Virus record (IMG/VR): IMGVR_UViG_3300047552_000839
Location: 1 to 35,868 of that record
Strand: one strand, 5' to 3'
From: a virus
Length of the DNA stretch: 35,868 nucleotides
A model generated the notes under the pieces. The model was not told where the DNA came from. It ran no database searches and saw nothing but the letters and a program-made list of their open reading frames with translations. How positions within the stretch are numbered: the stretch's first letter is position 1; each line of letters starts with the position of its first letter. Shown one piece after another: positions 1 through 35,868 of the stretch. The translations under genes were made by a program, and so were the position numbers.

Positions 1-146
1 CTTCAGATGCGAGTGACCAAAATGAAAACGCACTATTTGATTGGCTTTTGAGCTTCACGAGATAGGCCGATAGCGCCCCGAAGCTCGAAAGCCATACCGC
101 CCATGCGTAGGAGGTCGGCGGTAGGTCTGGCGGAAAACGCCCTGCA

Positions 147-374
147 TCATTCGGTATCATCGCTAGAATTTAGGATGCATGCATTTATCCCTCTTTCGAT
201 CAGATCCATGCGTGTGATGATGTTTTGGTCTATTTCCTGGCTCCTGTACGTGCCGAGCAGGAACACGGCGCCAGTTGCCAGCCATGCGAGGAAAACAGCC
301 GCCCAAAGCAGTGAGAATTGCCGTCGCGCTTGGTTCAAGTGGCACTCCTGCTGTGTGCAGCGGTTTTCTGTCAT
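147..374 (-). CDS. small single-pass membrane protein, unknown function
   Basis: 75 residues from ATG at 374; a GTG at 377 overlapping the stop of the upstream gene is an alternative start. One hydrophobic segment at about residues 20-42 (rich in L, A, W, V, F) follows a charged, cysteine-containing N-terminus. The tail after it is polar (RSQEIDQN...DLIERGIN...SSDDTE), giving a single-pass layout. It is the last clear gene of the minus-strand block near the left edge. An inner-membrane spanin subunit or accessory lysis protein is possible from position and topology, but the coil-forming periplasmic part is very short for an Rz. No family recognised. Confidence 0.6.
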   Translation of the reverse strand: MTENRCTQQECHLNQARRQFSLLWAAVFLAWLATGAVFLLGTYRSQEIDQNIITRMDLIERGINACILNSSDDTE

Positions 375-376
375 CA

Positions 377-547
377 CTAGATCTTGAGCGATTCAAGATC
401 GACGCCCTGATTCAATTCGCGCTTGAGCCAGTTCGGCGTATGGCCGCGCCCGGTCCACGCCTCTGCGTGGTTTTTCGGATTGCGGTACTTCACCGGCAAT
501 TTATTGCCCTTTAGCGGTGATTCTTCGATTGATCGAACCCTTGCCAT
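377..547 (-). CDS. mini H-NS-like protein (DNA-binding domain only)
   Basis: 56 residues starting at ATG 547, chosen because GAGG lies 5 nt upstream; in-frame ATGs at 565 and 583 have no ribosome site. Residues about 14-56 carry the H-NS C-terminal signature: PVKYRNP, then AWTGRGHTPNWL, then a short helix ending LESLKI. This loop (W-[ST]-G-R-G-x-x-P-x-W) binds AT-rich minor grooves in beta-proteobacterial and Xanthomonas H-NS relatives. The N-terminal oligomerisation helices of about 50 residues found in full-length H-NS are absent, so it should bind DNA but not polymerise. It could compete with host H-NS or mask phage DNA. It lies between two membrane-peptide genes downstream of the lysis cassette. 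Confidence 0.8.
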   Translation of the reverse strand: MARVRSIEESPLKGNKLPVKYRNPKNHAEAWTGRGHTPNWLKRELNQGVDLESLKI

Positions 548-561
548 TTCGCCCTCGTTTG

Positions 562-684
562 TCATACCAAAAAAACGGCCCATGCTGAGCCGACCACGAT
601 AACCGCCGAGATTGCTAGGGTGTCCCACCCGTAGCGATGCCCAGCGAACCAAATCAACGTCCACGCGCCCGTGATTGCCTTCAT
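562..684 (-). CDS. 40-residue membrane peptide
   Basis: Short frame starting at ATG 684, which overlaps the stop of the upstream lipoprotein gene (ATGA), and ending TGA at 562-564. The first half has W, F and L around residues 8-13; the second half is a clear membrane helix (AISAVIVVGSAWAVFLV, about residues 24-40). It ends flush with the helix, so almost nothing projects on the far side. Support is the start-stop coupling with neighbours on the same strand and the strongly hydrophobic composition. Function unknown; a small holin or antiholin-type peptide is possible. Confidence 0.5.
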   Translation of the reverse strand: MKAITGAWTLIWFAGHRYGWDTLAISAVIVVGSAWAVFLV

Positions 685-845
685 CGAACGATCCCCCAAT
701 CGCAAGAAATAACCGCCATGCCGCCATCAATCATTCCCTTTTTTGCGCCTGGTACTTGCTGCCATTGTTCGGCCCATAGCATCCGGCCTGACGATGAACA
801 ATCGACGTGGACGCATCCGCAGAGTAGCAACGCGATCAGGATCAT
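681..845 (-). CDS. small lipoprotein, unknown function
   Basis: 54 residues from ATG 845, which overlaps the stop of the preceding 36-codon gene (ATGA). The N-terminus MILIALLLCGC is a short lipoprotein signal with a lipobox (L-C-G-C, acylated Cys about residue 11), so the product should be an outer- or inner-membrane lipoprotein. The mature part is about 43 residues with W, G and two more Cys and no recognisable domain. A small lipoprotein next to small membrane peptides in a lysis region could be an Rz1-type outer spanin, but another, more proline-rich candidate lies at 1352-1636. A longer start at 896 is possible but has no ribosome site. Confidence 0.55.
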   Translation of the reverse strand: MILIALLLCGCVHVDCSSSGRMLWAEQWQQVPGAKKGMIDGGMAVISCDWGIVR

Positions 846-952
846 GACGCGAGCAGTCCTACACACAGGAGCGCGGCGGTCCATCCGATCATCCATCCGA
901 CCATCGTATACAGTGCGATCCGTGCGGCCTTGAATCGTTGTCTCTTTGTCAT
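842..952 (-). CDS. 36-residue membrane peptide
   Basis: ATG at 952 overlaps the TGA of the upstream HTH gene (ATGA), and its own TGA overlaps the ATG of the lipoprotein gene at 845. The start is basic (MTKRQRFKAARIA), followed by one membrane helix (about residues 14-35, rich in W, G, A, L, V). The positive-inside rule predicts a cytoplasmic N-terminus. The double start-stop overlap is the main reason to believe it is expressed. It may pair with the lipoprotein that follows. No family recognised. Confidence 0.5.
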   Translation of the reverse strand: MTKRQRFKAARIALYTMVGWMIGWTAALLCVGLLAS

Positions 953-1362
953 GACCGATCCACGAAGTGAGTAATCATGTCCTTGCCTGTGCGGCCTTGA
1001 TACCAACATTCCACGGTTCGCTTGCTGACACCGTACCGATCTGCAAGGGCTTTCTGCGAAAACATGGCATTCAATCGGTCGATCATGCGTTGTCTAAAAT
1101 CCCCTGCGGCGATGAGTTCGGGCACGCTGGCCCAGGACATCCGCTTCGCTGCATTCTCGGGTTTCTGATTCGGTTTCGACTGCTGCCAGAAATCGTCTAG
1201 TTTCTGCAATGCCGCCAAAACGTTTCCCATTGCGATGCTGACGCGCTTGACTCGGTTTCGGTGTCCGGTCGGCGTATTCGCCTCGGATGTCACGTCTTGC
1301 CATACTTCATCAAGTCGATCTATTGCGTCCGAAACTTCGTCGGCGTATTTCTCAAAGCGCAC
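949..1362 (-). CDS. HTH-containing protein, possible phage regulator
   Basis: 137 residues starting at a GTG (1362) inside the end of the upstream lipoprotein gene; AGGG lies about 9 nt upstream. The N-terminal two thirds are helical and charged (EKYADEVSDAIDRLDEVWQD...LAALQKLDDFWQQ), suggesting an oligomerising helical bundle. The C-terminus carries a helix-turn-helix-like stretch, about residues 100-125 (SQKALADRYGVSKRTVECWYQG), of the class found at the C-terminus of several other proteins in this phage (12581-13066, 14716-15072, 20593-20934). It sits after the lysis genes, so it may act late. A DNA-binding role is inference from the motif alone. Confidence 0.6.
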   Translation of the reverse strand: MRFEKYADEVSDAIDRLDEVWQDVTSEANTPTGHRNRVKRVSIAMGNVLAALQKLDDFWQQSKPNQKPENAAKRMSWASVPELIAAGDFRQRMIDRLNAMFSQKALADRYGVSKRTVECWYQGRTGKDMITHFVDRS

Positions 1363-1636
1363 GCCCCGATTCCCTTGCCTTGACGTATGCGCGTAGCAGT
1401 GATTTTCCGCCTTCGTCCGCTTCCACTGGTTTCCCTGGTTCGATCGTGATATGCACTACTTGAGGGATTGGTGGAAGCGTACAGAGGCATGGTTTCGGCC
1501 CGATCACTGGATTCTGTACGGGTGCAGGTCCAGCGAGTCGTAAATCTTTCGGTCCTACCTGAACGCAACCAAAAAAACCCGCGCAGAGACACGCGAGAGT
1601 CGCAGCGCGGGCAGTGGTCGCGAGGTAGGAGATCAT
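1352..1636 (-). CDS. proline-rich lipoprotein, candidate outer spanin (Rz1-like)
   Basis: 94 residues from ATG 1636, overlapping the stop of the upstream gene (ATGA). The signal sequence MISYLATTARAATLACLCAGFFGC ends in a lipobox-like FFGC (acylated Cys about residue 24). The mature part is proline-rich (GPAPVQNPVIGPKP...LPPIPQ), as in Rz1-type outer-membrane spanins, which fuse the envelope in the final step of Gram-negative lysis. Position supports this: endolysin, then a small membrane-anchored protein, then this lipoprotein. It is not nested inside another gene as lambda Rz1 is, and a classical Rz partner is not obvious; the 73-residue protein at 1633-1854 occupies that slot. The role is inferred from position, lipobox and composition. 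Confidence 0.6.
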   Translation of the reverse strand: MISYLATTARAATLACLCAGFFGCVQVGPKDLRLAGPAPVQNPVIGPKPCLCTLPPIPQVVHITIEPGKPVEADEGGKSLLRAYVKARESGRAL

Positions 1637-1854
1637 TTAGCGCGTCGGGAGATTAAGCCGATGCCTGCGAGTGCTGACGCGAACAGCCACACGGCGGCCG
1701 GAATCGGTACCGGATCGCATTTCGGCATAGGTGGTTTCGGGTGATGTACTCGTTCGAAAAATATATCGGTCCCCTGGTAGGTCAGGGCTTCACTGACTTC
1801 CATAGCTCCAGCCTGAGCCGAAAACAGGAACGCGATCACAAACAGGTTTTTCAT
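1633..1854 (-). CDS. small secreted protein with VPxPA-CTERM-like sorting tail
   Basis: 73 residues, ATG 1854, with GGGGA about 6 nt upstream and ATGA overlap with the endolysin stop. Three parts are visible: an N-terminal signal peptide (residues 1-17, cleaved near AQAGA); a mature stretch of about 30 residues with a Pro-rich patch (HHPKPPMPKCDP); and a C-terminal sorting-type module. That module is VPIPA at 49-53, a hydrophobic helix at 54-68 (AVWLFASALAGIGLI) and a basic end (SRRAK). This is the layout of PEP-CTERM/VPLPA-CTERM proteins, which exosortases process in biofilm-forming Gram-negatives. The slot, between endolysin and a spanin-like lipoprotein, is where an inner-membrane spanin is expected. 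It may therefore be a surface-sorted protein or a spanin-like protein whose anchor mimics the motif. Confidence 0.6.
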   Translation of the reverse strand: MKNLFVIAFLFSAQAGAMEVSEALTYQGTDIFFERVHHPKPPMPKCDPVPIPAAVWLFASALAGIGLISRRAK

Positions 1855-2306
1855 TCGATTCCCCTTAAAAAGAGTTCTCTTTCAGCTCGACGACGGCGCG
1901 TGAGTCCATGCGATACTTTGCCGCCAGCTTTGTTCCACTTCGTGAATTCATCTGCGGCTTTCGTGTCCTGTCCCTGGTTCAACATCTTGAGCAGGGTTGA
2001 TCCGCGAAACGCGCCGACTCCGACGTTGAAAACGAACGAGGCCAGCGCATCGACTTGTTCTTGTGCGAGTTCGTCCGCGTGAAGGATGTGCTTTTCTGCC
2101 TCGTTCCAGTGCTCTGCGACTTGGTGCTGTAGCAGAATCTCGGCCTCGGCTTGACTGATGGTCAGCGACGGCTTTACCGGCTTTCCGGCTATGCGAGTCG
2201 TTCCGTAGCCGATCGTCCAGACACCCGCAGGGCATTTGTACGCGCGCAGTTTGCACCCCTCGAATTCTCGAATCAGTGCAAGGCCGCGCGTTGATACCTG
2301 GCTCAT
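1851..2306 (-). CDS. endolysin, T4-type lysozyme (GH24 muramidase)
   Basis: 151 residues from ATG 2306, chosen because it overlaps the stop of the upstream gene (ATGA); an in-frame ATG at 2336 would add ten unsupported residues. It cleaves the MurNAc-GlcNAc bond of peptidoglycan at lysis. The active-site region has E16 (FEG), C25 (YKCPAG) and T31 (WTIGYG), with the spacing of T4 lysozyme E11/D20/T26. Cys instead of Asp at the second position is common in phage GH24 enzymes. The C-terminal GLTRRRRAERELFL is the usual family ending. There is no signal or SAR segment, so release should need a holin (candidate at 2548-2769). Confidence 0.93.
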   Translation of the reverse strand: MSQVSTRGLALIREFEGCKLRAYKCPAGVWTIGYGTTRIAGKPVKPSLTISQAEAEILLQHQVAEHWNEAEKHILHADELAQEQVDALASFVFNVGVGAFRGSTLLKMLNQGQDTKAADEFTKWNKAGGKVSHGLTRRRRAERELFLRGIE

Positions 2307-2551
2307 GGCTTCCGTGTCAGCCTTATAGCTGCGCACTCAACAGCGCATAAATTGATCGCTTCCACCAGCGCCTTAGCCATTTCTTCATCTTGTATTTGCA
2401 ACATGACGCCTGGAAAATACTTTCTGCGGCTATCTTCGTTCGAAGGCCAAACAGTTACCGTTCCAATCCCGTCAGAGTCTGGACTGACGTTTAGAAACGT
2501 CCCATCCTGATCGTCGTATATTCTTCGATACACTTCGGTTGTCACGCTCAC
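2303..2551 (-). CDS. hypothetical protein in lysis cassette
   Basis: 82 residues, overlapping its upstream neighbour by 4 nt and the endolysin gene by 4 nt. No signal peptide or membrane segment. It looks like a small soluble alpha/beta protein (VYRRIYDD...TVTVWPSNE...KYFPGVMLQIQDEEMAKALVEAINLCAVECAAIRL), with a helical C-terminal half containing two Cys. No family recognised. Tight coupling to holin candidate and endolysin suggests it is made with them, but lysis control cannot be inferred from sequence. Confidence 0.6.
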   Translation of the reverse strand: MSVTTEVYRRIYDDQDGTFLNVSPDSDGIGTVTVWPSNEDSRRKYFPGVMLQIQDEEMAKALVEAINLCAVECAAIRLTRKP

Positions 2552-2769
2552 TGATTGCGCCTCACGATGTCATCAAGAGATGCCGGGTTAACCTGATTGG
2601 CCGTGATCTCTGCAACGGCTTTGTCCGTTGCTCTGCGAAGTCCGATATAGCCGAGTCCGTTACCGACCATCAGGAATGCCGAGTCAAAGTCATGCAGTCC
2701 TGAGATTGCGCCGATGATTCCGTACAGGATCAAGAGCGCGCCTGCTGTTTTCGTGAGCCAGCCTTTCAT
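2548..2769 (-). CDS. candidate holin
   Basis: 73 residues from ATG 2769, which overlaps the stop of the upstream gene (ATGA); the much longer frame on this strand is spurious beyond this point. Two hydrophobic segments are visible: about residues 7-24 (TAGALLILYGIIGAISGL) and 31-46 (AFLMVGNGLGYIGLR). A polar C-terminal tail follows (TDKAVAEITANQVNPASLDDIVRRNQ). Small size, paired membrane segments, a charged C-terminus and position two genes upstream of a signal-less endolysin fit a holin. The second segment is weak, so a single-pass membrane protein is an alternative. Confidence 0.6.
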   Translation of the reverse strand: MKGWLTKTAGALLILYGIIGAISGLHDFDSAFLMVGNGLGYIGLRRATDKAVAEITANQVNPASLDDIVRRNQ

Positions 2770-3070: not shown

Positions 3071-3125
3071 TTTATCGCCTGACCGTAGCTCAAAAAGGTG
3101 AAACGATCCATATGGTTTATTTCAC
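3071..3125 (-). promoter_or_regulatory. putative late promoter of the lysis operon with 28-bp dyad (site 2)
   Basis: A 28-bp imperfect palindrome fills 3098-3125 (11 of 14 base pairs symmetric). Its centre is CATATG and each half begins GTGAAA, half-site GTGAAAYRNWNCAT. A -10-like GATAAA lies on the minus strand at 3071-3076, with no recognisable -35, as expected of an activator-dependent promoter. The site overlaps the stop codon of the Mor-like activator gene and precedes the lysis operon. A second copy at 34828-34855 matches at 22 of 28 positions. Binding by the Mor-like protein is inference. Confidence 0.6.
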
Positions 3126-6390: not shown

Positions 6391-7287
6391 TCATGCTGCT
6401 TCGTCGTCATCGATCAGATCGAACAGGTCGGCATTTCCGCTGCGTGCGTTCTTGAGATTGCGCGCGGCCTGTTCGAAGTATCTGGTTTTGAGTTCAATTC
6501 CGACGAAGCGTCGATTCATCTGCACGGCCACATGTCCCTCCGATCCGATTCCTGCAAACGGCGACAAGATCACGTCGCCCGGATTCGTCCAGAGATCCAC
6601 TCCGCGCCGGATCACTTCGAGCTGTAGCGGGCAGATATGGCGCTCGTCTTCGTGCTCGCGTGCTGATGTGTATTGCAGGGTGTCCGATGGGTTGATATCG
6701 GTCCAGATAGGCGAGGCAATCTGCTGCCATTTCGAGACGGGGTAATCGCCTGGATTGTGCGTCACCCGATCGATGATCTCGCCGGGATTCCGCATCGTGA
6801 TCAGATAGTCGGGTATCCCCTGCCGCGACATACTGGCGTTTCCGCGTACTGTCTTGTGAAGCAATCCGAGCGCCTTGGTGCGCTGCATGGATGTCACGGG
6901 GTCTTTCCATATCACGACTTCAGAGTGATGAATAAATCCATTTTCCTGAAATGCTCGGATCAGATCTCCGCGGAAGTCGCGAAGTCCGATATACCCGTCA
7001 CGCTCCTTGATGGTCGGTAGCAACATGCAGTGAAACGATACGTTGCGACCGGGCTTCATAACCCTGCGCAACTCGGAGATCACGAATCCGAAATGGTTGA
7101 AGAAATCCTCGTAGTTTCGGCAGTTCCCGAGATCGCGCGGACTATTCGAGTACGTATAAAGTGACGCAAACGGAGGCGAAAAGATGGAGTAATCGATACT
7201 CGCATCTGGGATCATCCCGAGCACTTCACAACAATCTCCGTGGTAAAGCGTCCAGTCTTTTCCGTTGGCCTGATTGACTACGTTCAT
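6391..7287 (-). CDS. site-specific DNA methyltransferase (N4/N6 class)
   Basis: 298 residues, ATG 7287, overlapping the helicase stop (ATGA). It transfers a methyl group from AdoMet to an exocyclic amino group of cytosine or adenine. Motif IV SPPF (37-40) comes first. The AdoMet-binding motif I region (DVILSPFAGIGSEG, about 237-250) comes near the C-terminus, the beta-class order. The S-P-P-[FY] form is more usual in N4-cytosine enzymes, but N6-adenine cannot be excluded. No restriction partner is present, so it probably protects phage DNA from host restriction or marks it. It forms a pair with the SNF2-like helicase. Confidence 0.88.
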   Translation of the reverse strand: MNVVNQANGKDWTLYHGDCCEVLGMIPDASIDYSIFSPPFASLYTYSNSPRDLGNCRNYEDFFNHFGFVISELRRVMKPGRNVSFHCMLLPTIKERDGYIGLRDFRGDLIRAFQENGFIHHSEVVIWKDPVTSMQRTKALGLLHKTVRGNASMSRQGIPDYLITMRNPGEIIDRVTHNPGDYPVSKWQQIASPIWTDINPSDTLQYTSAREHEDERHICPLQLEVIRRGVDLWTNPGDVILSPFAGIGSEGHVAVQMNRRFVGIELKTRYFEQAARNLKNARSGNADLFDLIDDDEAA

Positions 7288-11522: not shown

Positions 11523-11688
11523 GTCGCTTGTTTGGTTTCTGTCCAGACTCGAAAAGGCAGTCGTGTCTGGTTGGTCGTTTGTCGATTGGCTGGAATCTCC
11601 GACAGAAGCGGACGAGATTGAGATCTTCGTGAGCGGACCGGTTGAACGTCACGAAAACCGCGTGCATTTGCCAAGAAGGTGGAATTGA
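11503..11688 (+). CDS. hypothetical early protein upstream of the exonuclease
   Basis: 61 residues from ATG 11503 (AAGG close upstream), overlapping the previous gene by 20 nt; its stop overlaps the exonuclease start. The N-terminal half is amphipathic to hydrophobic with several Trp (FVESLVWFLSRLEKAVVSGW); the C-terminal half is charged and contains E-I-E-I-F-V-S-G-P-V-E-R. No family recognised. Confidence 0.5.
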   Translation: MKRLFVESLVWFLSRLEKAVVSGWSFVDWLESPTEADEIEIFVSGPVERHENRVHLPRRWN

Positions 11689-12572
11689 TGGACCGAAAAA
11701 CATACATCGGCGGCAGCGACATTGCCGCGATTCTCGGTATCTCGAAATGGAAAACAGCCTACGGATTGTGGCTTGATAAAACCGGCCAGGCCGAGGATGA
11801 ACCGTCAAGCGAACAGCGCGAGCGAGTGCTTGCGCGCGGTAAGCGACTGGAACCCGTAGTGCTCGACATGCTGGCCGAGGAAACTGGAATCGAGATCACT
11901 GCGCGCAATCAGCGATATATCGATGCTGATCTGCCATTCCTTGCGTGCGAGATCGACGCGGAGTCTGGCGATACCAACATCGAGATCAAGACTGTGCATC
12001 CGTTCGCCGCACGCGATTGGGGCGACGAAGGAACGGACGAGATACCCGTGTACTACACCGCCCAGGTCATGCACGGTCTTGCGATTACTCGCCGCCGCGA
12101 GTGCATCGTTGCCGCGCTGATTGGCGCCGATGATCTGCGGATTCATCGCGTTGAATACGACGCGGAAGCGGCCGAACTGATCCGAGACAAGGCGCGATGG
12201 TTCTGGACTGATTGTGTTCTCGGCGGGGTAGCGCCTGAACCTGCAAGTCTTGATGACGTGCGGCGGATGTTCGCCCGTGATACCGGCAGCGAGATTGTCG
12301 CATCCGGCGACGTGAGATCCGCAGTCCTTCGCCTTAAGGGAATATCCGAGCAAGTGAAGATGCTCGAATCGGAAGCTGACGAACTGAAAACCAGCGTGCA
12401 AGCGTACATCGGGACGAATGCCGTATTGATTGGCCTGGATGGCAAAAAGATCGCGACATGGAAAACACAACAGCGGAGCGCACTAGATCAAAAGGCACTT
12501 GCAGCGGCACACCCGGAAATCGTTGAACAGTTCAAGCGCGTGAGCGAATCGCGCGTGTTTCGATTGGCATAG
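11688..12572 (+). CDS. YqaJ/lambda-exo-like 5'-3' exonuclease
   Basis: 294 residues from ATG 11688; GTG 11679 is an alternative. It resects dsDNA ends to give 3' ssDNA for RecT annealing. The YqaJ signature is at the start: YIGGSDIAAILGISKWKTAYGLWLDKTG, cited in part. Catalytic PD-(D/E)XK residues follow: E55 (KRLEP), D90 (CEID), E99-x-K101 (NIEIKT), and a Gln in YYTAQVMHGLAIT. The C-terminal extension of about 100 residues is helical. It is paired with RecT, with an HNH gene inserted between them. Confidence 0.9.
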   Translation: MDRKTYIGGSDIAAILGISKWKTAYGLWLDKTGQAEDEPSSEQRERVLARGKRLEPVVLDMLAEETGIEITARNQRYIDADLPFLACEIDAESGDTNIEIKTVHPFAARDWGDEGTDEIPVYYTAQVMHGLAITRRRECIVAALIGADDLRIHRVEYDAEAAELIRDKARWFWTDCVLGGVAPEPASLDDVRRMFARDTGSEIVASGDVRSAVLRLKGISEQVKMLESEADELKTSVQAYIGTNAVLIGLDGKKIATWKTQQRSALDQKALAAAHPEIVEQFKRVSESRVFRLA

Positions 12573-12580
12573 GCTAAACA

Positions 12581-13066
12581 GTGAGAGTTGAAACAAAAAG
12601 CGGAAAACGAACGCTTGATATTGATGCAAGGCGCGCGTCGTTTATGAAAAAAGTCGATATACAAGACAACGGATGCTGGCGATGGAACGGATCAACGATA
12701 CATAGCGGCTATGGGCAAGCATCAGTGTTAGGACACAGGACTACAGCACACAGAGGCGCATATCTTCTGTTTGTTGGTCATATAACTGACGGCATGGTTG
12801 TTTGTCATTCCTGCGATAACAGGTGGTGCGTAAATCCATCACACATGTGGATCGGAACACAGGCAGATAATATTGAAGACATGAGGAGAAAGGGAAGATC
12901 AAATCAGGTTAAAGGTGAACGTCACGCATCAGCAAAGCTTGCACCACATCAGGTTATGTCAATCAGGACTGATCATAGAGACGTTGCTGTAGTTGCTAGT
13001 GACTATGGAATAGCGAAATGCACCGTTAGAAACATTCAAGCATTGCGTAAATGGAGGCATATATGA
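12581..13066 (+). CDS. HNH homing-type endonuclease
   Basis: 161 residues starting at GTG 12581. HNH_3-type core at about residues 60-110: TAHRGAYLLFVGHI, then VVCHSCDNRWCVNPSHMWIGTQADNIEDM, cited in part, with His/Asn/His and Cys pairs for metal binding. The C-terminus (about 125-160) is an HTH-like tail (LAPHQVMSIRTDHRDVAVVASDYGIAKCTVRNI, cited in part). Its base composition is visibly more AT-rich than the flanking exonuclease and RecT genes, which suggests recent insertion. Its last codons contain the GGAGG ribosome site of recT, so the insertion keeps downstream translation. Free-standing HNH genes spread by cutting alleles that lack them. Confidence 0.88.
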   Translation: MRVETKSGKRTLDIDARRASFMKKVDIQDNGCWRWNGSTIHSGYGQASVLGHRTTAHRGAYLLFVGHITDGMVVCHSCDNRWCVNPSHMWIGTQADNIEDMRRKGRSNQVKGERHASAKLAPHQVMSIRTDHRDVAVVASDYGIAKCTVRNIQALRKWRHI

Positions 13067-13911
13067 GCACTGAACAACTGAAGTCTGCTATATCGCAGAG
13101 CGCAAAGATTGCATCATTGCCAAGAGAAAGGCAGTTCCCAGCACTTCTCGAACAGTTCAAGACGGAGATCGCACGCGCATTGCCGCGACACCTGAACCCG
13201 GATCGCATGGCGCGAATCGCGCTGACGTGCTTTCGGCAGAATCCGAAGCTGGCGCAATGCCAACCGGCGAGCGTCTTCGCGTCGGTGATACAGGCGTCTC
13301 AGCTCGGGCTTGAGCCTGGCCTTCTCGGTCAGTGCTACCTGATCCCGTACAAAGAGGAATGCCAACTGCAAATCGGGTATCAGGGCCTGGTCGATCTCGT
13401 TCGCCGTACCGGCCGCGTGAAGCGCATCGAAGCGCATGTTGTACGTGACGGTGACACATTCACGTATCGCACCGGACTCGAGACGATCTTGGCGCATGAG
13501 CCTGCATTGGATGGCGAACCGGGAGAAATGCGCCTTGCGTATGCCGTCGCAGAGTTCGCAGATGGCGGGTTTCACGTCGAGGTCATGACGCGGCATCAAA
13601 TCGAGTCGATTCGCGATCGGTCTCAGAACGTCCAGAACTCCAAGAAATGGGGAAAGAAGACTCCTTGGGATACCGACACTGAGGAAATGTGGCGCAAGAC
13701 TGTGCTGCGTCGGATCTGCAAGTATCTGCCGCGCTCGCCTGAACTGGCAACTGCCATCGCCTTGGACGAGTCACCGCGGCAGGAATTGAGCGTCGATGAC
13801 GCAATCAATGGCACATGGGCGCCGGTAGTGCAGGAGGAGGAATCGACCGTGCAACATGTCGATACATCAACGGGCGAGATTATCGAAAACGCAAACGGGG
13901 AACCCACATGA
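13063..13911 (+). CDS. recT: RecT-family single-strand annealing protein
   Basis: 282 residues from ATG 13063 (GGAGG 6 nt upstream). It coats ssDNA left by the exonuclease and anneals complementary strands. Family landmarks: ALPRHLNPDRMARIALT near residue 45; FASVIQASQLGLEPG; the central QIGYQGLVDLVRRTGRV; then EMWRKTVLRRICKYLPRSPELATAIALDE. The C-terminal tail is acidic and polar. The length is typical of the family. It completes a lambda Red-type recombination pair with the gene at 11688. Confidence 0.95.
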   Translation: MSTEQLKSAISQSAKIASLPRERQFPALLEQFKTEIARALPRHLNPDRMARIALTCFRQNPKLAQCQPASVFASVIQASQLGLEPGLLGQCYLIPYKEECQLQIGYQGLVDLVRRTGRVKRIEAHVVRDGDTFTYRTGLETILAHEPALDGEPGEMRLAYAVAEFADGGFHVEVMTRHQIESIRDRSQNVQNSKKWGKKTPWDTDTEEMWRKTVLRRICKYLPRSPELATAIALDESPRQELSVDDAINGTWAPVVQEEESTVQHVDTSTGEIIENANGEPT

Positions 13912-16157: not shown

Positions 16158-16409
16158 ATGAAACCCGGCCGAAACCTGCAAGTTGGTGATGAAGCGTTGA
16201 CTGATTTTAACCACCCTGGCGGGAAACAAGTGCAGGTCACGATAATTGACCGTTGCGAGAATCAGCGTAGCCAAAGCGGCATCCTGTTCCGAGTCCGTCC
16301 GACATTGCGTAACGGGCGCGAGACGACGTGGTACGATGCCGATTGGTTTTGGCCGGTCAGTCCAACTTCCGCGCAAGTTCTTCGGCCGACTCCCGATAGT
16401 ACGCCATAA
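16158..16409 (+). CDS. hypothetical protein at the convergent junction with int
   Basis: 83 residues from ATG 16158, with GAAG close upstream. It resembles small beta-rich phage proteins with a D-A-D-W-F-W-P ending: KPGRNLQVGDEALTDFNHPGG, then VQVTIIDRCENQRSQSGILFRVRPTLRNG, then TWYDADWFWPV, each cited in part. Its last 53 bp overlap the 3' end of the integrase gene on the other strand. No terminator is visible between the convergent genes. Confidence 0.6.
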   Translation: MKPGRNLQVGDEALTDFNHPGGKQVQVTIIDRCENQRSQSGILFRVRPTLRNGRETTWYDADWFWPVSPTSAQVLRPTPDSTP

Positions 16410-17343
16410 GCGACTTTGGATCTCGATGCCCAGCGATGCGCGCCAATTGCAGCACGTCGAATTTCTTCGAAAGCCGCGTCAACGCCAGTGCGCGGCTATC
16501 GTGAAAGGTCAGTCCGACGATTCCGGCCGCATCTCGAGCGCGACGAAAAAGCGTGTCCCTGGTCCGTGCTCCAACCGTGAAACAGCGTATCGGATCAACT
16601 CCGCGCAACAATCCGAACAGTTCAACCGCGCGACTCGATAGCGGCACGTCCCGAGAGTCGCCGTTCTTGGTCTTTTCTAGGCGCGCCACGCGTCGTAACG
16701 CGTCCACCTGATCCCACGTCAGCGAAAGCAGTTCACCGGCCCGCATGGCCGTTTCTGTCGCCAACAGGAACGCAACGGCGATCTGTTGTTGGTGCGTCGT
16801 GACTGGATACTCTTCGTCGTATCCGAGAGCGATGCAGATGCGCTCGATTTCGTCATCGGTCGGCAGCCTGGTTCGGGCTTTTGGTGCGGGAGGTTTCCGC
16901 ACGTCCCTGATTGGATTCGTCTCGATCAATCGCCATTCTCGCCGCGCGTGTTCGAGTACCGCAGTCAGTAGCGTGATGTCGCGAAGGACTGTCCCGGCCT
17001 GGACGTCTCGCAATCTCCTGTCGCGCCACTGGCCGATGTCTTCCGGCGTGAGTCGTTCGATGTCGATCTCTGCGATTGGATCGCGCGCGATTGCCTCTAG
17101 CCTGATCTGCTCCCACCGGGCGCCGCGCTTGGTGGGCGACACCTCGGCAGCATAGCGCGCCATGACGGACGCGAGCGACGTTCGGCCGCTGCCAGTGATC
17201 GGCTTGCCTGCTTCAATTCGACGCTCAAGGTCTGCCGCCCATGCTTCGGCTTCCAGGCGCCGCGCGAACGAGCGAGATTGAGAGATCCCTCCGCGTCGAA
17301 CTTGCGCGAACCATCGCCTGCCCCTTTTCGAAATCGATGCCAC
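16357..17343 (-). CDS. int: tyrosine-family integrase
   Basis: 328 residues if translation starts at GTG 17343, chosen because AGGA lies 8 nt upstream and the protein then begins ASISKRGRRWFAQVR, the normal start of this family. Longer ATG frames to 17406 run through putative arm sites. It has an N-terminal arm-binding domain (1-50), a SAM-like core-binding domain (about 55-140) and a catalytic domain. Active-site residues are visible: R201 (MRAGELLSLTW), K224 or K226 (RLEKTKNG), H281-x-x-R284 (FHDSRALALT), H306 (AGHRD) and the nucleophile Y315 or Y316 (MAYYR). It integrates and excises the phage at att sites. Confidence 0.93.
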   Translation of the reverse strand: MASISKRGRRWFAQVRRGGISQSRSFARRLEAEAWAADLERRIEAGKPITGSGRTSLASVMARYAAEVSPTKRGARWEQIRLEAIARDPIAEIDIERLTPEDIGQWRDRRLRDVQAGTVLRDITLLTAVLEHARREWRLIETNPIRDVRKPPAPKARTRLPTDDEIERICIALGYDEEYPVTTHQQQIAVAFLLATETAMRAGELLSLTWDQVDALRRVARLEKTKNGDSRDVPLSSRAVELFGLLRGVDPIRCFTVGARTRDTLFRRARDAAGIVGLTFHDSRALALTRLSKKFDVLQLARIAGHRDPKSLMAYYRESAEELARKLD

Positions 17344-17554
17344 TGATGCAATCCTGATGCACGGTCGCACAGGATAATAGGACATGAGAGCGCGAGAGAG
17401 GAACACGCGCGACGTAACGCGCTGATCTGCTACGCGATGAGAGATCGTGACAAGAAGTGAGGAATGGGGATAAAATGCCGCCGTTTCCGACCCTCGGCAC
17501 CAGATACCCGCAGTCTACGCGGCTTTCAAGGCCGAATGATGCAAGGATGATGCA
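17344..17554. other. probable attP region: paired arm sites and tRNA-Leu-like core
   Basis: The heptamer TGATGCA occurs as two pairs, at 17344 and 17355 and at 17537 and 17548. The two copies in each pair are 11 bp apart, about one helical turn, and all are in the same orientation. Between the pairs, 17491-17502 reads CCCTCGGCACCA, identical to the acceptor-CCA end of many proteobacterial tRNA-Leu genes. Together these look like integrase arm sites flanking a core. No other gene is seen between the integrase start and 17561. Confidence 0.6.
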
Positions 17555-33787: not shown

Positions 33788-34285
33788 TTATGCGGCCTCC
33801 AGGTTCTTGATGTACGCCTCTCGGCTGATACCGAGCGCGCTGCAAATGGCGAGATCCGCGTCAGTCAACACGGGATCATCGGTCGTGGTCGGCGGCTTTC
33901 CGCCAGTCTGCGAACCGGACAGCGCGGCGATGGGTTGCGCCTTGTCGAGAAACGCTTTCAGCGCGGCGGTATCCTTGGCGCCCAGATCGCGCGCCCAGCT
34001 TTCGAGATTGGCATTCAGCCGACCATCGGCCAGAGCAGGGGTAATCAGGTCGTCAATCTCGCGCTTGGTCAAAGCGGACTGCAAAGCCGCTACCTGATCC
34101 TGCAACGCGGTCAGCGCGGCAACCGGCGCAAACTTGGCCGGATCGGGCGCGGTCGTGGTCGCTGCGGCGATGGCTTCGTCGGCCTTCGTTAGTTTTTCTG
34201 AAACCGCATTGCAAGCGGCGATGATTGCCGAATCTTCGGCATCCTCGGCAATGCCGAGCAGGGCAGTCACTGCGGCGTGCAGCAT
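33788..34285 (-). CDS. nested scaffold protein, Mu Z-like (internal start)
   Basis: 165 residues in the same frame as the protease, from ATG 34285. GAGGTG lies 6 nt upstream, a better ribosome site than that of the full-length gene. It begins MLHAAVTALLGIAEDAED and includes the coiled-coil-like DQVAALQSALTKREIDDL. In Mu, the scaffold Z is made from an internal start of gene I. This reproduces that layout, and the site makes real initiation likely. Confidence 0.65.
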   Translation of the reverse strand: MLHAAVTALLGIAEDAEDSAIIAACNAVSEKLTKADEAIAAATTTAPDPAKFAPVAALTALQDQVAALQSALTKREIDDLITPALADGRLNANLESWARDLGAKDTAALKAFLDKAQPIAALSGSQTGGKPPTTTDDPVLTDADLAICSALGISREAYIKNLEAA

Positions 34286-34804
34286 GGTGGGCACCTCGGG
34301 GGGTTGGTGAAATCTGGAAGCGGCCGCGAGTAGCACGGGTTTCATTCCGTCGATCGCGGGGTTGTTGGTCAGTGCAACGTTGAGCAGATCGGTAGGAGTC
34401 CCGGTCTTCTCGTCATACGTGAAAACTGGCGAGATATACGCGTACTCGCCGGATTCGATCATCTGCTTGGCGCGTTCGGTCCATCGAGCAGCGGCGAACA
34501 TACCAGCATCGTCCCAGCGGAGCGCGCTTGATTCGATCCAGCCAGCGGCCGGGGCTGGCATACCGTTCGTGGCTGCCATCAGGGATTGGTGTTCGTAGTC
34601 CACCACGAGCGCGGTCTTGCGCTTGGCGACTTTCGAGATCAGTGCGGATGCTGCCGCCTGGTCGAGCTTCCACGGTCCAGATCCGCGCATGGCGCCGTGA
34701 GGAACCGAGAAGTCACCGGCAGGGAATACCTGAATCTCCGACTCGGCCTTGGTGCGGTCGAGCGGGAAATGACAAACGGCAAAGGGTTGCGCATGTTTCG
34801 GCAT
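33788..34804 (-). CDS. head maturation protease/scaffold, Mu I-like
   Basis: 338 residues from ATG 34804. The N-terminal protease domain (about 1-165) has the Mu-I pattern: FAVCHFPL..., IQVFPAGDF, KTALVVDYEHQSL (probable catalytic region), PAAGWIESSALRW, GEYAYISPVFTYD and LLNVALTNNPAIDGM. The C-terminal half is a helical, Ala/Gln-rich scaffold. A nested gene starts at ATG 34285. No ribosome site precedes ATG 34804; a hairpin GCAAC-N7-GTTGC (34809-34825) and the 28-bp dyad (34828-34855) lie immediately upstream. It is the first minus-strand gene after the plus-strand island, so it needs its own promoter. Confidence 0.9.
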   Translation of the reverse strand: MPKHAQPFAVCHFPLDRTKAESEIQVFPAGDFSVPHGAMRGSGPWKLDQAAASALISKVAKRKTALVVDYEHQSLMAATNGMPAPAAGWIESSALRWDDAGMFAAARWTERAKQMIESGEYAYISPVFTYDEKTGTPTDLLNVALTNNPAIDGMKPVLLAAASRFHQPPEVPTMLHAAVTALLGIAEDAEDSAIIAACNAVSEKLTKADEAIAAATTTAPDPAKFAPVAALTALQDQVAALQSALTKREIDDLITPALADGRLNANLESWARDLGAKDTAALKAFLDKAQPIAALSGSQTGGKPPTTTDDPVLTDADLAICSALGISREAYIKNLEAA

Positions 34805-34827
34805 ACGCGCAACTTACGACGTTGCAG

Positions 34828-34855
34828 GTGAAACGTTACATATGAAACATTTCAC
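34828..34855. promoter_or_regulatory. 28-bp dyad (site 1) between the I-like gene and the plus-strand island
   Basis: 12 of 14 base pairs are symmetric around CATATG with GTGAAA at each outer end; 22 of 28 bases match the copy at 3098-3125. It ends 23 nt before the protease start codon and 136 nt before the first island gene, so it could control either direction. The Mor-like protein is the likely binder. Confidence 0.65.
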
Positions 34856-34899
34856 CAAGAGCGGATTTTTTCAGCTGAGCATCAGAACATTTTATGGTA

Positions 34900-34953
34900 C
34901 AACTGATAAATAACAGTTGCATTCTTGATCTGAATGTGGGACACTATACCCAC
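34900..34953 (+). promoter_or_regulatory. putative control region of the plus-strand island
   Basis: CAACTG-N8-CAGTTG (34900-34919) is a 20-bp dyad, and GTGGG-N8-CCCAC (34936-34953) a second inverted repeat. TTGCAT (34917-34922) and a CACTAT/TATACC element (about 34943-34950) could form a promoter, but spacing is not ideal. The first island gene begins at 34992 with GGAGAGA upstream. Confidence 0.45.
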
Positions 34954-34991
34954 GCTGACGGATTGGCCTGAAGCGGGAACCGGAGAGAGAC

Positions 34992-35153
34992 ATGAACGCA
35001 ACCATTAACAACCTGAAGAACGGACAGAGCGTAAAAATCAGCGGCGACTCCGCTGTATGGGTTACGGTCGAGAAGAGCGGCAATGGCAAAATCATCCGCT
35101 GGGTTCGGAACACTCCGAACTCGTCGGAAGTTTTCAAGACTGTCAGCCTTTAA
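34992..35153 (+). CDS. island gene 1, small protein
   Basis: 53 residues from ATG 34992 (GGAGAGA 4-8 nt upstream). Predicted small beta protein: SVKISGDSAVWVTVEKSGNGKIIRWVRNTPNSSEVFKTVSL, cited in part. The V-T-V-E-[KR]-S-x-[DN]-G-K-x-[IL]-R-[FW]-V-R-[NH]-T-x-N-[ST]-x-E-V-F-[KR]-T pattern is familiar from small uncharacterised phage proteins. It opens the four-gene plus-strand operon lying between head genes. Function unknown. Confidence 0.7.
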   Translation: MNATINNLKNGQSVKISGDSAVWVTVEKSGNGKIIRWVRNTPNSSEVFKTVSL

Positions 35154-35163
35154 GGGGAAGGAC

Positions 35164-35409
35164 ATGAACGCAACAACACTAAAGGCCGTCTACAACGGCA
35201 AGACATTTACCCGCAAAACAGCGCGCACGTATACGCACGCGGTAGCGTGCACTCACAACCCGCAAAACATGTCATGGAGAGCGACCGACGTAGACGGTAT
35301 TGTTGCATGGTGCGGAAGCCACGCCATTGCTATCAAAGCCCTGCGGCAATACAGCAAACCTCAATTTGGCTTTGCTCACGTTGAAATTGTTCCGGTATCA
35401 GCGACATGA
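35164..35409 (+). CDS. island gene 2, small protein
   Basis: 81 residues from ATG 35164 (AAGGGGAAG just upstream); a longer frame from 35083 overlaps gene 1 and is not supported. The pattern YNGKTFTRKTARTYTHAVACTHNPQN, then SWRATDVDGIVAWCGSHAIAIKALRQY, ending FAHVEIVPV, cited in part, looks like a compact alpha/beta fold. It shares the first codons MNAT with gene 1. Function unknown. Confidence 0.7.
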   Translation: MNATTLKAVYNGKTFTRKTARTYTHAVACTHNPQNMSWRATDVDGIVAWCGSHAIAIKALRQYSKPQFGFAHVEIVPVSAT

Positions 35410-35561
35410 AAATGCCCCACGAATACCGCAAGACTGGGCAGGTCACTTGCTCAGTCTGCGGCAAGGTGACTACCGCCAGACTGAACGTCCCTGGCCCGCG
35501 ATTCTGCGGGTCAACGTGTCGGAGTAGGGCTAGGCGGCAATCTCAGAAGGTGAAGAAATGA
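35406..35561 (+). CDS. island gene 3, zinc-finger-like protein
   Basis: 51 residues, ATG 35406 overlapping the stop of gene 2 and stop overlapping the start of gene 4 (ATGA on both sides). C15-x-x-C18 and C35-x3-C39 (TCSVCGK ... FCGSTCRSRARR) form a likely zinc site, followed by a basic tail (RSRARRQSQKVKK). It may bind nucleic acid and is the only candidate regulator of the island. Confidence 0.65.
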   Translation: MKMPHEYRKTGQVTCSVCGKVTTARLNVPGPRFCGSTCRSRARRQSQKVKK

Positions 35562-35794
35562 AAACAACAGCACAACAGCAGTTCGTCGCAAACATTGAGG
35601 CAATCAAAGATCAGCTTTCCGAGTTACAGAATGCAGTCCATGACTTCCTCTACGTTGATCCTGACTATGTGAATTGGGACAACGTAGGCGATACCGCCGA
35701 GGTTAAACGCAGGATTGGCGATTTGATCTTGTCCCTGACTGACGCAAAGAAACAGTATCCTACCGAAGCTCGTCCCTCAGTCCCGACTCGATAG
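35558..35794 (+). CDS. island gene 4, helical small protein
   Basis: 78 residues from ATG 35558 (GGTGAAGAA upstream). Helical and acidic: QQFVANIEAIKDQLSELQNAVHDFLYVDPDYVNWDNVGDTAEVKRRIGDLI, cited in part; a possible two- or three-helix protein. Its last 35 bp overlap the end of the minus-strand gene entering from the right edge. Function unknown. Confidence 0.65.
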   Translation: MKTTAQQQFVANIEAIKDQLSELQNAVHDFLYVDPDYVNWDNVGDTAEVKRRIGDLILSLTDAKKQYPTEARPSVPTR

Positions 35795-35868
35795 CGTTTA
35801 GCACGTCGTCTTCCCAGTCTCTCGGGAGGTCCACATTACCGGCCTGGTCGATTGGGAGATATGGCCTG
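35760..35868 (-). CDS. C-terminal end of a minus-strand head gene (partial, possibly Mu F/gp30-like)
   Basis: 35 codons before a TAG at 35760-35762, open to the window edge: PYLPIDQAGNVDLPRDW then EDDVLNAIESGLRDELR. It is on the strand of the head operon. The Mu order places the head morphogenesis protein (F) or G just upstream of I, so this is most likely one of those, but the fragment is too short to identify. It converges with, and overlaps, island gene 4. Confidence 0.55.
   Translation of the reverse strand, partial: RPYLPIDQAGNVDLPRDWEDDVLNAIESGLRDELR

Follow-up and report, generated by a model that had tools for sequence, protein, structure and literature searches.

What is the role of four small plus-strand genes that lie within the head operon of a phage and run against it? 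The initial annotation of the window (the whole IMG/VR record IMGVR_UViG_3300047552_000839, 35.9 kb or 35,868 nt) noted that such a site is where anti-CRISPR genes were found in Pseudomonas phages, and proposed an anti-defence or other host-takeover island. All four genes were confirmed as open reading frames of 53, 81, 51 and 78 aa at the positions given in Table 1. We consider it probable (roughly 60%) that the four genes form a mobile accessory (moron) cassette with a promoter of its own, devoted to anti-defence or host takeover.

Table 1. Features of the island and its flanks; positions refer to the window.
Feature	Position	Strand	Remarks
Mu I-like head maturation protease (left flank)	33788..34804	-	Pfam PF10123 (Mu-like_Pro), E 3e-96; phrog_328, 2.5e-103
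30-bp near-perfect palindrome GGTGAAACGTTACAT/ATGAAACATTTCACC (GGTGAAACGTTACATATGAAACATTTCACC) just upstream of gene I	34827..34856	.	same sequence in siblings; not present in the G001 island
Inverted repeat CAACTG-N8-CAGTTG near the left edge of the shared cassette DNA	34900..34919	.	kept in G005; one arm altered in G004; missing in G001
Predicted sigma70-type promoter: TTGCAT, 17-bp spacer ending TGG (extended -10), GACACT	34916..34945	+	recognised by eye; weak relative to consensus
Palindrome GTGGGACACTATACCCAC (GTGGG-N8-CCCAC), candidate operator across the predicted -10	34936..34953	.	single copy in the window
Conserved leader up to the first start codon (cassette anchor A)	34940..35000	+	85% identity with G001 (101 bp) and 93.5% with G002 (62 bp)
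Gene 1, 53 aa, variable cargo	34992..35153	+	replaced in siblings; 65% homologue in L038
Gene 2, 81 aa, variable cargo, family RKTARTYTHAV...WCGr.dLa.K	35164..35409	+	ten relatives, from a variety of viral contigs
Gene 3, 51 aa, constant gene (anchor B), CxxC-x15-CxxxC treble-clef zinc finger (predicted)	35406..35561	+	84-94% aa identity in four islands
Invariant 50-nt block within gene 3	35480..35529	+	no nucleotide change in four islands, including that of the unrelated phage G001
Gene 4, 78 aa, variable cargo; the 3' ends of gene 4 and G overlap	35558..35794	+	another gene in G005, none in G004
Mu G-like virion morphogenesis gene, 3' end (right flank; runs off the record)	35759..35868	-	matches the C-terminus of the 147-aa Phage_tail_S protein in siblings L002/L003/L006

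Insertion site and phage type

The nearest annotated relatives of the left-flank protease belong to the P. aeruginosa D3112 group, with 39-40% identity over the full length (39.6% to D3112 orf33). The right-flank protein is complete in siblings L003 and L006, where it matches Pfam Phage_tail_S (Mu G family; E 3.9e-10) and has a Mu F-like gene upstream, joined in L006 by a Mu portal gene. With Mu-like_Pro on the left, and on the right a member of the Mu G family preceded by F-like and portal genes, both neighbours are head genes and the island is antisense to them. The proposed location between the protease gene and a head gene, opposite to the head operon, is thereby borne out, and so is the identity of the truncated gene at the right edge.

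The gap between G and I has been described as a region of plasticity, RGP G, which carries anti-CRISPR genes (PMC4378225). In D3112 and JBD26 it holds three small ORFs, and two of those in JBD26 match PHROG anti-CRISPR families (I-E and I-F; AcrIE, AcrIF), in agreement with the earlier assignment of the site to the gap known for acr genes. The comparison with the Pseudomonas phages does not extend to orientation, as the gap genes of D3112 and JBD26 lie on the strand of the head genes. In VW-6B, phage Mu, Rhodovulum phage P1 and a Mannheimia phage, a gap of ~180-260 bp with no annotated gene precedes I; the G-I gap therefore resembles a natural boundary between genes at which insertions are tolerated.

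The Mu/D3112-like part of the window is confined to the head module. No transposase was found among the window genes examined, in a record that lacks ~6 kb; a tyrosine integrase is encoded instead (16357-17406), together with RecE (11679-12572), RecT (13051-13911), a replication initiator, a helicase and an endolysin. The phage is temperate; judged by its tyrosine integrase and RecE/RecT genes, it is of the integrase type, and its lifestyle appears not to be Mu-like. The earlier comparison with Mu-like phages was wrong or incomplete as to lifestyle, since this is probably no transposing relative of Mu. Comparison with the sibling contig G005 suggests that the record is an incomplete opened circle, with ~6 kb (portal, F and most of G) missing between its ends (window 1-2600 and 35868).

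Cargo exchange between sibling phages

Two sibling contigs from one metagenome, G004 (000757) and G005 (000625), have flanks 91-95% identical to the window. A BLAST comparison of the window with both revealed only three shared blocks at the site, one extending up to 34953-35000, one at 35405-35537 and one from 35760 on, and the DNA between these blocks is unrelated. G, I, the promoter-leader and gene 3 are retained in both siblings, with genes 1, 2 and 4 replaced by unrelated small genes: in G004, ORFs of 77 and 97 aa precede gene 3 and none follows, and in G005, ORFs of 50 and 69 aa precede it and one of 87 aa follows. By tblastn, this cargo has no homology to genes 1, 2 or 4. Inspection of the same locus in related phages, which the initial annotation had suggested, thus yielded different small genes in each sibling, and genes 1, 2 and 4, being exchanged for unrelated ORFs, are not conserved virion genes. 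On these alignments, the island has two slots, 35001-35404 and 35538-35759, in which the small genes are exchanged and differ from phage to phage.

The overlap is 4 nt between genes 2 and 3 and again between genes 3 and 4, and genes 1, 2 and 4 have purine-rich Shine-Dalgarno sequences. The island ORFs are not due to chance, considering the dN/dS values of gene 3 (see below), the 65% homologue of gene 1 and the ten homologues of gene 2. The gene 1 homologue, the sole relative found, is located in an early-type region of another phage, next to an XRE-type HTH gene and a gene of recombination. The gene 2 family is scattered (L015-L024) and is also found in mycobacteriophages. AF2 modeling of gene 2 (pLDDT 86.6) gave fold matches to many uncharacterised phage proteins, including the 59% identical BFVD entry A0A6J5MSA0, and no significant match to PDB folds. 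For gene 4, the locus search found no relative, and only a weak match to phrog_14596 (8e-5) was obtained. The cargo families represent small accessory phage genes, not virion genes. As a side observation, the gene 2 proteins form a widespread unnamed family of small phage proteins in which the RKTARTYTH motif is invariant.

Every pair of siblings is 94-95% identical across the I flank. The G004 leader is 90.7% identical to that of an unrelated phage, G001, versus 77.8-83.3% to those of its own siblings, and gene 3 of G005 is 93.2% identical to the G001 copy versus ~88% to the sibling copies. Different modules thus have different nearest relatives, which points to recombination between phages.

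Control region and other carriers

The initial annotation had credited the island with its own control region, and this is supported by a leader and a palindrome over the predicted promoter that are conserved in other phages. The predicted promoter has counterparts in five other phage records, with TTGACA as the -35 element in G003. An automatic strict consensus scan did not call the stretch in the window, so the promoter is given here as a prediction. The 18-bp palindrome GTGGGACACTATACCCAC is expected by chance zero times in the window, even with up to three mismatches. The pattern GTGGG-N8-CCCAC was found in six phage records, mostly from one metagenome (the window and G001-G005), with one copy in each, always before a small ORF in G001-G005 and with one arm base altered in G005. 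A sixth match of the relaxed pattern, in L039, is located within a long ORF and was dismissed as chance. The leader corresponds to no known RNA family, has no strong RNA fold and gave no match in the phage or plasmid collections searched.

The 30-bp palindrome nearer to gene I was also considered as an operator of the cassette and was rejected, as it travels with gene I and is missing in G001; it probably belongs to the upstream region of I. It is possibly the operator of the I-T head operon. No link was found to repressor sites elsewhere in the window, where diverged half-site-like matches, at 3097-3111 and 7029-7043, do not exceed the chance level.

G001 (38.5 kb, from the same metagenome as the siblings) shares integrase and lysis genes with the window. 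Its virion is unrelated and P22-like (phrog_156 portal, phrog_283 head proteins), and its structural genes have no match in the window. In this phage the cassette adjoins the integrase gene and consists of the leader, a 63-aa ORF, gene 3 (94%), a 70-aa ORF and a 100-aa ORF. In G002 and G003 the promoter palindrome precedes other small ORFs: the first cargo gene of G002 encodes a BamE-like (BamE-domain) lipoprotein, and in G003 the shared promoter is followed by a single ORF and an apparent terminator, and the 15 kb of this record contain no gene 3. The alignments show two constant parts, the predicted promoter-leader with its candidate operator and gene 3, both of which occur also in a phage with an unrelated virion. 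The presence of these parts in G001, at a different site and among unrelated structural genes, and the discordance of nearest relatives by module characterise a horizontally mobile cassette.

The BamE-like lipoprotein of G002 and one G001 cargo protein that looks secreted by eye, with an N-terminal hydrophobic signal-like segment, suggest the envelope as the site of action for some of the cargo. These two proteins would fit a moron cassette that is mainly active in the lysogen, serving superinfection exclusion, lysogenic conversion or prophage-borne defence and not the inhibition of host defence; the pentapeptide-repeat ORF of the G002 cassette would fit as well, and an own promoter in the opposite orientation suits prophage expression. 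We regard this alternative as credible enough to keep in view, if rather unlikely, given that the window genes on inspection have no signal peptide or membrane segment and match no PADLOC defence model, and that relatives of gene 2 are widespread among phage accessory genes. In the G002 cassette (L012 13900-14674), the pentapeptide-repeat ORF runs off the end of the contig. Pentapeptide proteins can mimic DNA.

Gene 3 as the constant gene of the cassette

Gene 3 was recovered from four islands, mostly from one metagenome, one of them that of the unrelated phage G001 (94% aa identity). Across the four, dN is 0.02-0.06 against a dS of 0.23-0.56, i.e., the gene is under purifying selection. The AF2 model (pLDDT 80.7) consists of a β-hairpin and one C-terminal helix; the positions of C15, C18, C34 and C38 correspond to those of a treble clef, in accordance with the earlier description of a small zinc-finger-like protein. 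The finger reads CxxCGK-x-FCxxxC. The nearest solved folds identified by Foldseek are YacG and FCS/MYM zinc fingers, at E-values of 0.3 or worse, and the best sequence match is a Polyhomeotic-like FCS finger (2l8e; E 0.04). Gene 3 is thus predicted to fold as an FCS/YacG-like treble-clef zinc finger. Weak PHROG matches to an HNH endonuclease family (2e-4) and to a family of no assigned function (5e-5), and a 53% match in L008 to the beginning of an ORF that immediately precedes a terminase-like gene, suggest binding to nucleic acid. No match was found among the sequenced phages searched. A scan of cellular genomes yielded a single weak match of 15 residues in a Lachnospiraceae MAG, which was rejected.

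The fold raises the question of whether gene 3 could be a YacG-like inhibitor of host DNA gyrase, in which case the cassette would serve host takeover and not anti-defence, and gene 3 would be no promoter regulator. YacG is the nearest fold, including the gyrase-bound structure 4tma (probability 0.77-0.90, TMq ~0.6, 25% identity), and pairwise similarity to a YacG sequence spans the whole finger (32% over 31 aa). The Foldseek E-values are weak, the Pfam YacG model gives no match, and other FCS fingers fit too, 2l8e by sequence and 2w0t by fold. YacG inserts a critical tryptophan into GyrB and requires its C-terminal region (PMC10886550). Gene 3 has no tryptophan, and its tail is short, variable and basic; gyrase inhibition is therefore not favoured, and we judge it very unlikely. 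Membership in the YacG family was rejected on the same grounds, with YacG retained as a fold relation.

Within gene 3, a 50-nt block is unchanged at all of its 20 silent-capable sites, versus 18 of 29 variable elsewhere in the gene (permutation P = 4e-5). It contains a CCCGC-N6-GCGGG hairpin that is mildly more stable than shuffles (z = -1.27), and may represent a recombination anchor or a constraint at the nucleic-acid level. The block could also stem from recent recombination, as would suit ordinary mosaic phage DNA in which the leader and gene 3 are mere shared homology, of no particular function, at a place where small ORFs accumulate. The natural G-I gap seen in Mu, VW-6B, Rhodovulum and Mannheimia phages is compatible with this. 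We nevertheless find it highly improbable: gene 3 is under purifying selection in both phage backgrounds, promoter, palindrome, cargo and gene 3 follow one another in this order at unrelated sites as well, and cargo families recur across phages.

The initial annotation had named gene 3 as a possible regulator. This is reasonable for a zinc-finger protein that is also the constant gene of the cassette; that it represses the promoter by binding the GTGGG-N8-CCCAC palindrome is what we infer beyond this. The palindrome may be read by another factor, since G003 carries it and has no gene 3. More tentatively still, and with considerable doubt on our part, gene 3 could found a non-HTH class of Aca-like regulator, in which an FCS/YacG-type treble clef represses its own cassette through the palindrome over the -10. 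If so, the promoter and gene 3 would serve as baits for a family of mobile anti-defence cassettes and, with it, many new inhibitors.

Anti-defence function and proposed mechanism

Profile searches with the island genes, likewise proposed at the outset, gave no match to known Acr, Aca, anti-restriction, defence or toxin families in PHROGs, Pfam, NCBIfam or PADLOC; the JBD26 Acrs, run as a positive control, were picked up by the PHROGs search. In line with the initial annotation, none of the four genes, gene 3 included, showed an Aca-type HTH in these searches. All 12 validated Aca families are HTH-domain proteins (PMC9765179). With no Acr homologue found and a constant gene that is not an HTH protein, the island was not classed as an acr-aca anti-CRISPR locus. 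What stands of the anti-defence or host-takeover proposal is variable cargo at an acr-type site, and the role itself is probable. The island has its own predicted promoter, lies between structural genes and varies among close relatives, which places it among moron cassettes of late-gene regions.

For such an anti-defence or host-takeover cassette, we hypothesize the following course of events. The antisense orientation would allow the cassette's own promoter to be active irrespective of late expression, in the early phase of infection, in the prophage or in both. RNA polymerase would start at TTGCAT-N17-GACACT, and the promoter would be shut when a repressor, for which gene 3 is the first candidate, occupies GTGGG-N8-CCCAC over the -10. 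The cargo proteins would act on host factors, most likely on defence, and cargo could be swapped when the constant parts of two phages undergo homologous recombination, with the assistance of phage recombinases such as the encoded RecE/RecT.

The G-I gap acts here as an accessory hot spot beyond the transposable phages of Pseudomonas, and the 18-bp promoter palindrome and the zinc-finger gene offer two sequence baits for small uncharacterised genes in unrelated phages. Should the cargo inhibit defence, guilt-by-association searches, at present based on HTH Aca genes, would have an additional marker at their disposal. Some ten small genes are named here as candidates for single-gene tests.

Relation to known systems

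The closest parallel is provided by the acr-aca loci of the Pseudomonas D3112/JBD30-group phages (RGP G), which occupy the same site between homologous G and I genes, comprise few small genes and vary in content between close relatives. As in acr-aca loci, a constant small gene accompanies variable cargo and a palindrome lies in the core promoter, here a predicted one; in published aca operons, the core promoter always contains an inverted repeat, which serves as the site of the repressor (PMC9410906). Unlike the Pseudomonas loci, the island is antisense to the head genes and has no known Acr, its constant gene is a predicted treble-clef zinc finger and not the HTH protein Aca1, and the phage is of the integrase type and probably not a transposing one.

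Anti-defence genes of archaeal viruses have a conserved promoter in common (PMC11065993), and the cassette resembles these regulons in that unrelated small genes are joined by a conserved promoter or regulatory sequence. It differs in its bacterial sigma70-like promoter with a palindrome and in being a multi-gene cassette moved between phages, whereas most of the archaeal cases are single genes. Short, packed, dispensable-looking genes with their own promoter inside a late operon are also typical of lambdoid morons and nin-type accessory regions, from which the cassette is set apart by a constant zinc-finger gene and a leader common to phages with unrelated virions. Gene 3 shares the CxxCGK-x-FCxxxC signature and the predicted fold with YacG and FCS/MYM-type treble-clef fingers, and is unlike YacG in having no GyrB-binding tryptophan and no acidic tail and in being a stand-alone phage gene within a cassette. 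In phage Mu, an annotated gyrase cut site lies within the G-I gap (L043 1258-1259), and gene 3 of the island has a gyrase inhibitor, YacG, as its nearest fold, which is probably a coincidence.
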